Program-made: the position numbers and the translations under genes
Shown here: piece after piece, positions 14,528-55,339 of the stretch
Layout of the letters: each line of letters starts with the position of its first letter
Position numbering within the stretch: the stretch's first letter is position 1
NCBI GenBank assembly: GCA_009889515.1
Contig: WUQR01000139.1
Location: forward strand, 496,001-560,000
DNA length: 64,000 bases
Origin: Nitrososphaerota archaeon
GTDB lineage: Archaea; Thermoproteota; Nitrososphaeria_A; Caldarchaeales; Calditenuaceae
Direction of reading: 5' to 3'
The notes under the pieces: model-generated
Told to the model about the DNA's origin: nothing
The model's input: the letters and a program-made list of their open reading frames with translations, nothing else
The model's database searches: none

Positions 14528-14710
14528 ATGGTTAAGCACGTATTAGTTACTCTCACAGACGAGCAGTACCAGTGCATCAGCCAGCTCAAGGGGAAGATGG
14601 GGAACAGCGACGCCGAAGTCCTCCGAAACATCTTCCTCGCTTGGATAAGCGAGAAGACGGGGATGGGGTGCTGGAGGGAGACCTCGGGCAAAGTGGAGAA
14701 AACTGTTTGA
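14528..14710 (+). CDS. Small ribbon-helix-helix-like protein
   Basis: 60 residues. VKHVLVTLTDEQYQCISQL is a beta-strand followed by a helix, then a turn and a second helix (DAEVLRNIFLAWISEK), the layout of a MetJ/Arc/CopG DNA-binding fold. It could be a dimeric repressor or, in archaea, a small RHH protein of unknown target. A GGTGAG ribosome-binding sequence lies two bases before the ATG, and a TTTAAAAA box about 35 bases upstream. No toxin gene is next to it; the neighbour downstream is a tRNA. Confidence 0.7.
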   Translation: MVKHVLVTLTDEQYQCISQLKGKMGNSDAEVLRNIFLAWISEKTGMGCWRETSGKVEKTV

Positions 14711-14780
14711 AATAGCGAAAACCAGTTAAATATCACCCGCCACATCCCTAGCCCGGACAGCCCGGTCGTCTAGCGGTCAA

Positions 14781-14812
14781 ACCACTCCCTGGCCAGAATA
14801 GAGTGGGGCCAA
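14781..14812 (+). other. Intron 1 of tRNA-Gln (D-loop)
   Basis: CCACTC (14782-14787) pairs with GAGTGG (14801-14806). The flanking GGTC pairs with GGCC, with three-base bulges AAA and AAG, which forms a bulge-helix-bulge substrate for the archaeal splicing endonuclease. Cutting after the second base of each bulge removes exactly 32 bases and restores a nine-base D-loop. Confidence 0.8.
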
Positions 14813-14835
14813 GGATGCGGGGCTTTGGATCCCGC

Positions 14836-14859
14836 AAAACGGGGGAGAAGTGACCCCGT
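14836..14859 (+). other. Intron 2 of tRNA-Gln (variable region)
   Basis: A hairpin ACGGGG/CCCCGT (14839-14844 with 14854-14859) interrupts the variable region. Removing about 24 bases leaves CGAC between the anticodon and T stems. The exact cut sites are uncertain by one or two bases because the central helix of the splice motif is weak. Confidence 0.65.
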
Positions 14860-14970
14860 GACGCCGGTTCGAATCCGGCCCGGGCTACATACTCAATAAT
14901 TTAGTTAAGTCTAGTCGTATTTGTGGGAAGAAGTCATAGATTTTAATAGTTCGCCGAAGAAGCGCGGGGT

Positions 14971-15203: not shown

Positions 15204-15207
15204 AAGG

Positions 15208-15281
15208 AGCCCCGGGCGGGGTTTGAACCCGCGACCTGCCGCTTACGAGGCGGCCGCTCTACCGGGCTGAGCTACCGGGGC
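15208..15281 (-). tRNA. tRNA-Thr (CGU)
   Basis: A complete cloverleaf on the minus strand: acceptor GCCCCGG/CCGGGGC, D-stem GCTC/GAGC, anticodon stem GCCGC/GCGGC with loop CTCGTAA (anticodon CGT), variable AGGTC, T-arm GCGGG-TTCAAAC-CCCGC, discriminator T. 74 bases with no intron. It reads threonine codon ACG. Confidence 0.95.
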
Positions 15282-55246: not shown

Positions 55247-55339
55247 GCGGCCGTGGTCTAGCCAGGTATGACGGCGGGGCCCCGAGCCAACTCTGGCGGG
55301 CACGCCCGCAAGTCCCGGGTTCAAATCCCGGCGGCCGCA
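55247..55339 (+). tRNA. tRNA-Gly (CCC) with canonical intron and C33
   Basis: Acceptor GCGGCCG/CGGCCGC, D-stem GTC/GAC, T-arm CCGGG-TTCAAAT-CCCGG, discriminator A. The anticodon stem GCGGG/CCCGC encloses a loop whose spliced form is GCCCCGG, giving anticodon CCC (55281-55283). The base before the anticodon is C, not the near-universal U33. A 19-base intron sits at the standard 37/38 position. 74 bases after splicing. The acceptor sequence fits glycine. Confidence 0.9.
55285..55303 (+). other. Intron of tRNA-Gly (37/38)
   Basis: A textbook bulge-helix-bulge: stem GCGGG/CCCGC, central helix GCCC/GGGC, bulges CGA and ACG, inner helix GCCA/TGGC with loop ACTC. Cuts after the second base of each bulge remove 19 bases. 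Confidence 0.85.

Follow-up and report, generated by a model that had tools for sequence, protein, structure and literature searches.

A tRNA-Gln(UUG) gene with D-loop and 37/38 introns in a Caldarchaeales archaeon, and a loop motif that recurs in tRNA introns of the order

Introduction

The window studied here is a stretch of 64,000 nucleotides from a Caldarchaeales archaeon (GenBank assembly GCA_009889515.1, contig WUQR01000139.1, positions 496,001 to 560,000 of the forward strand). At 14759-14887 it holds what appears to be a tRNA gene broken by two insertions. Is this a working gene, where exactly do the insertions lie, and how would they be removed? A first-pass annotation, made from the letters alone, identified tRNA-Gln(UUG) with two non-canonical introns, one in the D-loop and another, some 24 bases long, in the variable region; it placed no intron at position 37/38. 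In Thermoproteota, introns at non-canonical sites and tRNAs with several introns are well documented (PMC3218864, PMC4090602, PMC8450103). For Thermoproteales, PMC4033280 and PMC4090602, citing Sugahara 2008 and Fujishima 2010, describe bulge-helix-bulge (BHB) introns at numerous positions, with as many as three in one tRNA and similar introns common to several tRNAs.

Results

The gene (129 nt, plus strand, 14759-14887) is tRNA-Gln(UUG) with two introns, exactly where the first-pass annotation had put it. Its acceptor stem is 7 bp long (AGCCCGG/CCGGGCU), the T-arm is intact and the anticodon arm carries UUG; the D-stem contains two G-U pairs (10-25 and 13-22). Removal of 32 and 24 nt leaves the 73 nt that had been counted, and this spliced form is called tRNA-Gln(ttg) by ARAGORN. 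The unspliced gene is called neither by ARAGORN nor by the Rfam tRNA model. Intronless tRNA-Gln homologues in the phylum have the same 73-nt body.

Exon 1 (14759-14780, +) comprises the 5' acceptor strand AGCCCGG and positions 8-21, including the D-loop sequence AGCGGUCAA, and matches the intronless tRNA-Gln of relatives. Exon 2 (14813-14828, +) carries the 3' strand of the D-stem (GGAU), G26, the 5' strand of the anticodon stem (CGGGG, 14818-14822) and the loop bases CUUUGG, with the anticodon UUG at 14825-14827. Exon 3 (14853-14887, +) consists of A38, the 3' strand of the anticodon stem (CCCCG, 14854-14858), the variable loop UGAC, the T-arm (GCCGG-UUCGAAU-CCGGC), the acceptor strand CCGGGCU and A73; CCA is not encoded.

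The source genome is a metagenome-like bin of 154 contigs and 2.1 Mb, compared with 1.4-1.7 Mb in its genus; the contig that carries the gene is 1.26 Mb long. Rfam detected 44 tRNAs in this genome, none of them Gln. Besides the UUG gene, a DNA search for tRNA-Gln returned one CUG gene (L078); its remaining matches were short ones to the T-arm. Neither the Rfam tRNA scan nor the DNA search of the genome turned up a second UUG gene. A TATA-box-like sequence, TTAAATAT, is located at 14726-14733 (+), 26-33 nt upstream of the tRNA 5' end, and is a candidate promoter on sequence grounds only; A/T-rich boxes are found at comparable spacing 5' of many other tRNA genes in the genome. Just 5' of the gene is a 60-aa ORF (14528-14710; MVKHVLVTLTDEQYQCISQLKGKMGNSDAEVLRNIFLAWISEK...) that resembles a small protein of the ribbon-helix-helix type, and an intronless tRNA-Thr(CGU) gene in the opposite orientation (15206-15281, -) follows about 320 bp downstream.

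Intron 1 (14781-14812, 32 nt, +) is placed by BHB geometry in the D-loop, between A21 and G22. The BHB (14775-14813, +) is built from the central helix GGUC (14775-14778)/GGCC (14807-14810), the bulges AAA (14779-14781) and AAG (14811-14813), and the intron helix CCACUC (14782-14787)/GAGUGG (14801-14806). Because CAA is repeated at both ends, the cut may slide by up to 3 nt with no change in the product. With a BHB at a site other than 37/38, intron 1 is a non-canonical archaeal BHB tRNA intron, and in this the first-pass annotation was right. All four central pairs are formed in 75 of 79 D-introns (75 from the order, the other 4 from the rest of the phylum). In the 75 from the order, exon position 20 and its partner in the intron covary (C-G in 57, U-A in 12, U-G in 6), and these compensatory changes among relatives argue that the BHB is not due to chance. 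D-intron length ranges from 14 to 39 nt among the relatives. Both isoacceptors have a D-intron in families f1 to f4, and in genome G004 the D-introns of the UUG and CUG genes are nearly identical, which points to gene conversion between the two genes. One tRNA-Gln(UUG) gene (L114, genome G021) has a D-loop intron that lacks the loop motif described below, and has no 37/38 intron.

Intron 2 (14829-14852, 24 nt, +) lies between G37 and A38. Its central helix is CUUU (14823-14826)/GAAG (14847-14850), its bulges are GGA (14827-14829) and UGA (14851-14853), and its intron helix is UCCC (14830-14833)/GGGA (14843-14846); with CGGGG/CCCCG as the exon helix, a full hBHBh' motif is formed. The junctions read CUUUGG^AUCCCG...GAAGUG^A-CCCCG (carets mark the cuts). 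In position, 4-bp central helix and two 3-nt bulges, the intron agrees with the canonical archaeal 37/38 intron, and no difference from it was found.

This placement departs from that of the first-pass annotation, and the two were compared using tRNA-Gln genes from 61 genomes (that of the window and 60 relatives) plus some named genomes. In intronless tRNA-Gln, e.g. that of genome G052 (GCGGGG-CTTTGGA-CCCCGTGGC), the mature anticodon stem is CGGGG/CCCCG. As the window has CCCCG at 14854-14858, the intron must span 14829-14852, at 37/38. A splice in the variable region, which would leave a mature stem of CGGGG/UCCCG and nothing at 37/38, also folds as a tRNA, likewise gives 73 nt, and is accepted by ARAGORN. 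Identity to intronless homologues does not discriminate between the placements either (67 vs. 66 of 73 for G052, 62 vs. 63 for G014). It is the comparison across relatives that decides: with the cut at 37/38, all five pairs of the anticodon stem form in 74 of the 74 order genes that have an intron there, but with the 3' strand taken directly after the loop they form in only 8 of these 74. Moreover, if the insertion is put between 44 and 48 and the anticodon stem closes 5' of it, no 4-bp central helix is available, whereas at 37/38 the central helix CUYU/GRRG has all four pairs in 73 of 78 genes. The variable-region placement was therefore rejected; we consider it highly improbable. The first reading was misled because UCCCG, which it took as a stem strand and which is intron 2's own helix strand, also pairs with CGGGG (with one G-U). 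The annotation was thus correct in the intron's length and in giving this tRNA-Gln(UUG) two introns, of which one is non-canonical; its site for the second, and with it the statement that none lies at 37/38, was wrong.

We also considered that the locus might be an unexpressed remnant, either a decayed pseudogene or a tRNA-derived repeat into which the extra bases were inserted; the invisibility of the gene to standard tRNA finders is in keeping with such an origin. However, this is the sole UUG gene in the genome, all of its stems are intact, both insertions have conserved splice motifs, and two-intron orthologues are found across the order; decay is, in our judgment, scarcely credible. The locus is almost certainly a functional, single-copy tRNA-Gln(UUG) gene of Caldarchaeales whose two introns, the non-canonical 32-nt one at 21/22 in the D-loop and the canonical 24-nt one at 37/38, are of the protein-spliced BHB type, with EndA and RtcB as the presumed splicing enzymes.

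The genome encodes the machinery for such splicing. The gene for the catalytic EndA subunit, EndA alpha (L031, 186 aa), has PDB chain 3p1z_B as its best match (E 6.7e-55), presumably the Aeropyrum pernix endonuclease, and retains the motifs FGSDFAVY, DHAPY and VRKNF. Its paralogue, EndA beta (L032, 179 aa), has Thr in place of the active-site His (ETSKYL replaces the His motif). One subunit with Tyr-His-Lys and one structural subunit without it are the make-up of a heteromeric EndA, and the two presumably form an alpha2-beta2 tetramer; the heterotetrameric enzyme that had been anticipated thus has both of its genes here. A gene for RtcB is also present (E 2.2e-165). Once the gene was transcribed and the subunits assembled, the two-subunit EndA would cut every 3-nt bulge of the two BHB motifs behind its second base, at sites predicted from the structure. 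RtcB would ligate the exons to give the 73-nt tRNA, to which CCA would then be added.

The apical loop of intron 1 contains, unpaired, the sequence CUGGCCAGA (14789-14797, +; core GGYCAGA). GGYYRGR occurs in 72 of the 75 order D-introns and is missing from three. GGYCAGA occurs in 61 of 75 D-introns, all 61 of them from the order (mean of 0.3 and maximum of 3 in 1000 rounds of shuffling). The same motif is found in the V-arm introns of tRNA-Leu in family f1 (GUAGGCCAGA) and in 37/38 introns of tRNA-Trp, -Ser(CGA), -Met and -Leu in various genomes of families f1, f3 and f4. CTGGYCRGA was searched for 10-40 nt upstream of the T-loop, with the pattern read backwards as a control. In 44 order genomes there were 69 matches vs. 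8 for the control; by reading of the matched sequences, ca. 49 were intronic and ca. 13 were exon D-arms. Across about 210 further genomes from the phylum no excess was seen (33 vs. 37 for the control), and spread of the motif through the phylum was rejected.

Three candidate roles for the motif were tried. For pairing with the anticodon loop (UCAGA:UYUGG, 5 bp), that loop is invariant and offers no covariation to weigh; the presence of the motif in introns of tRNA-Trp, -Ser and -Met counts against it. A D-loop mimic needed by the disrupted D-loop is weakened by tRNAs that carry the motif and have intact D-loops. Inspection by eye showed neither of the boxes, C or D, that a box C/D guide would have.

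Other oddities of tRNA introns were noted. In many UUG genes of family f3 and in f4g8, the 37/38 intron contains a stretch of 6-12 nt that is the reverse complement of part of the D-arm. In one example (11 nt, UCCUUGGCCGC vs. GCGGCCAAGGA), the complementary D-arm sequence is contiguous only after removal of the D-intron. Genes with this antisense in the loop of the 37/38 intron are L102, L103, L097, L064, L108, other f3 and f4g8 UUG genes, and L116; the antisense is absent from the 37/38 intron of the window's tRNA-Gln(UUG). A tRNA-Gly(CCC) gene at 55247-55339 of the window has an intron of ca. 19 nt at 37/38 and is misread by ARAGORN. U is near-universal at tRNA position 33; an intronless homologue of this gene (L366, genome G014) has C there (loop GCCCCGG), a feature conserved in the genus. 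A tRNA-Leu(UAA) gene (L042, G000:C139:829384-829514) combines a 37/38 intron with a V-arm intron that starts near GUAGGCCAGA. A tRNA-Gly(GCC) gene (L040, G000:C139:666375-666467), called Ser by ARAGORN, has an intron that apparently lies inside the anticodon stem, at ca. 29/30.

Discussion

Two intron-bearing tRNA-Gln genes are found in nearly every Caldarchaeales genome, and the D-loop plus 37/38 arrangement occurs throughout the order. In the window's family both isoacceptors (UUG and CUG) have both introns, whereas in genome G014 the CUG gene has both and the UUG gene (L125) is intronless. The report on Candidatus Caldiarchaeum subterraneum, a member of the same order (Sugahara et al. 2012, PMC3293823), gives introns in 13 of 45 tRNAs, with introns in the D-, V- and T-arm, and lists three multi-intron tRNAs, one with the anticodon CUG; the printed "tRNAGlu[CUG]" is evidently Gln. 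As these published introns attest, the gene belongs to a known kind of tRNA: the two-intron arrangement is already reported in this group, and the core of the gene is ordinary. The first-pass annotation had described introns outside the anticodon loop as known mainly from Thermoproteales and a few other TACK archaea; the TACK lineage holds, but the implied rarity does not, since the arrangement is standard among Caldarchaeales and publication of a multi-intron CUG tRNA dates from 2012. Non-canonical introns are found here as they are in Thermoproteales, which are a different order. The tRNA-Gln of genome G059 (family f13) also has an intron at this D-loop position, but the D-introns seen outside Caldarchaeales lack the CUGGYCAGA loop.

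The recurring intron-loop sequence may be the new part; the excerpts of PMC3293823 contain no description of it. The sharing of the motif could reflect descent via intron transposition or selection on the loop, both of which are possible. The loop has been kept while the stems and lengths (14-39 nt) of the D-introns vary freely, which favors some selection. We tentatively suggest, leaning slightly against it on balance, that CUGGYCAGA (core GGYYRGR) is under selection in Caldarchaeales tRNA introns at differing sites, and so marks an order-specific intron family with a shared function or binder. Its sites, on the same tentative footing, would be the D-loop of tRNA-Gln, position 37/38 of tRNA-Trp, -Ser(CGA), -Met and -Leu, the V-arm of tRNA-Leu, and the D-arm of tRNA-Met. 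Roles could include, for instance, mimicry of the D-loop, an RNA-protein contact that aids splicing, or an activity that the intron has once it is excised.

It is a related and somewhat doubtful possibility that the D-intron is more than tolerated, and persists because the excised intron or its loop motif has a function; this would add to the two-intron gene reading given above, not replace it. The constancy of the loop against differing stems and lengths, and the presence of the motif in introns of other tRNAs of the order, speak for such a function. On the other side, no partner was found, three order D-introns lack the motif, and the sharing could in part go back to common ancestry via intron transposition. 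The motif also resembles tRNA D-arms, as the exon matches in the pattern search illustrate, and could have originated from a copy of one.

Intron-bearing archaeal tRNAs are easily missed or mis-spliced on paper: here, standard finders overlooked the only tRNA-Gln(UUG) gene of a genome, and an intron strand able to pair imitated its true anticodon stem. The loop motif, if functional, would join the few indications that short introns of archaeal tRNAs have some role beyond being removed.
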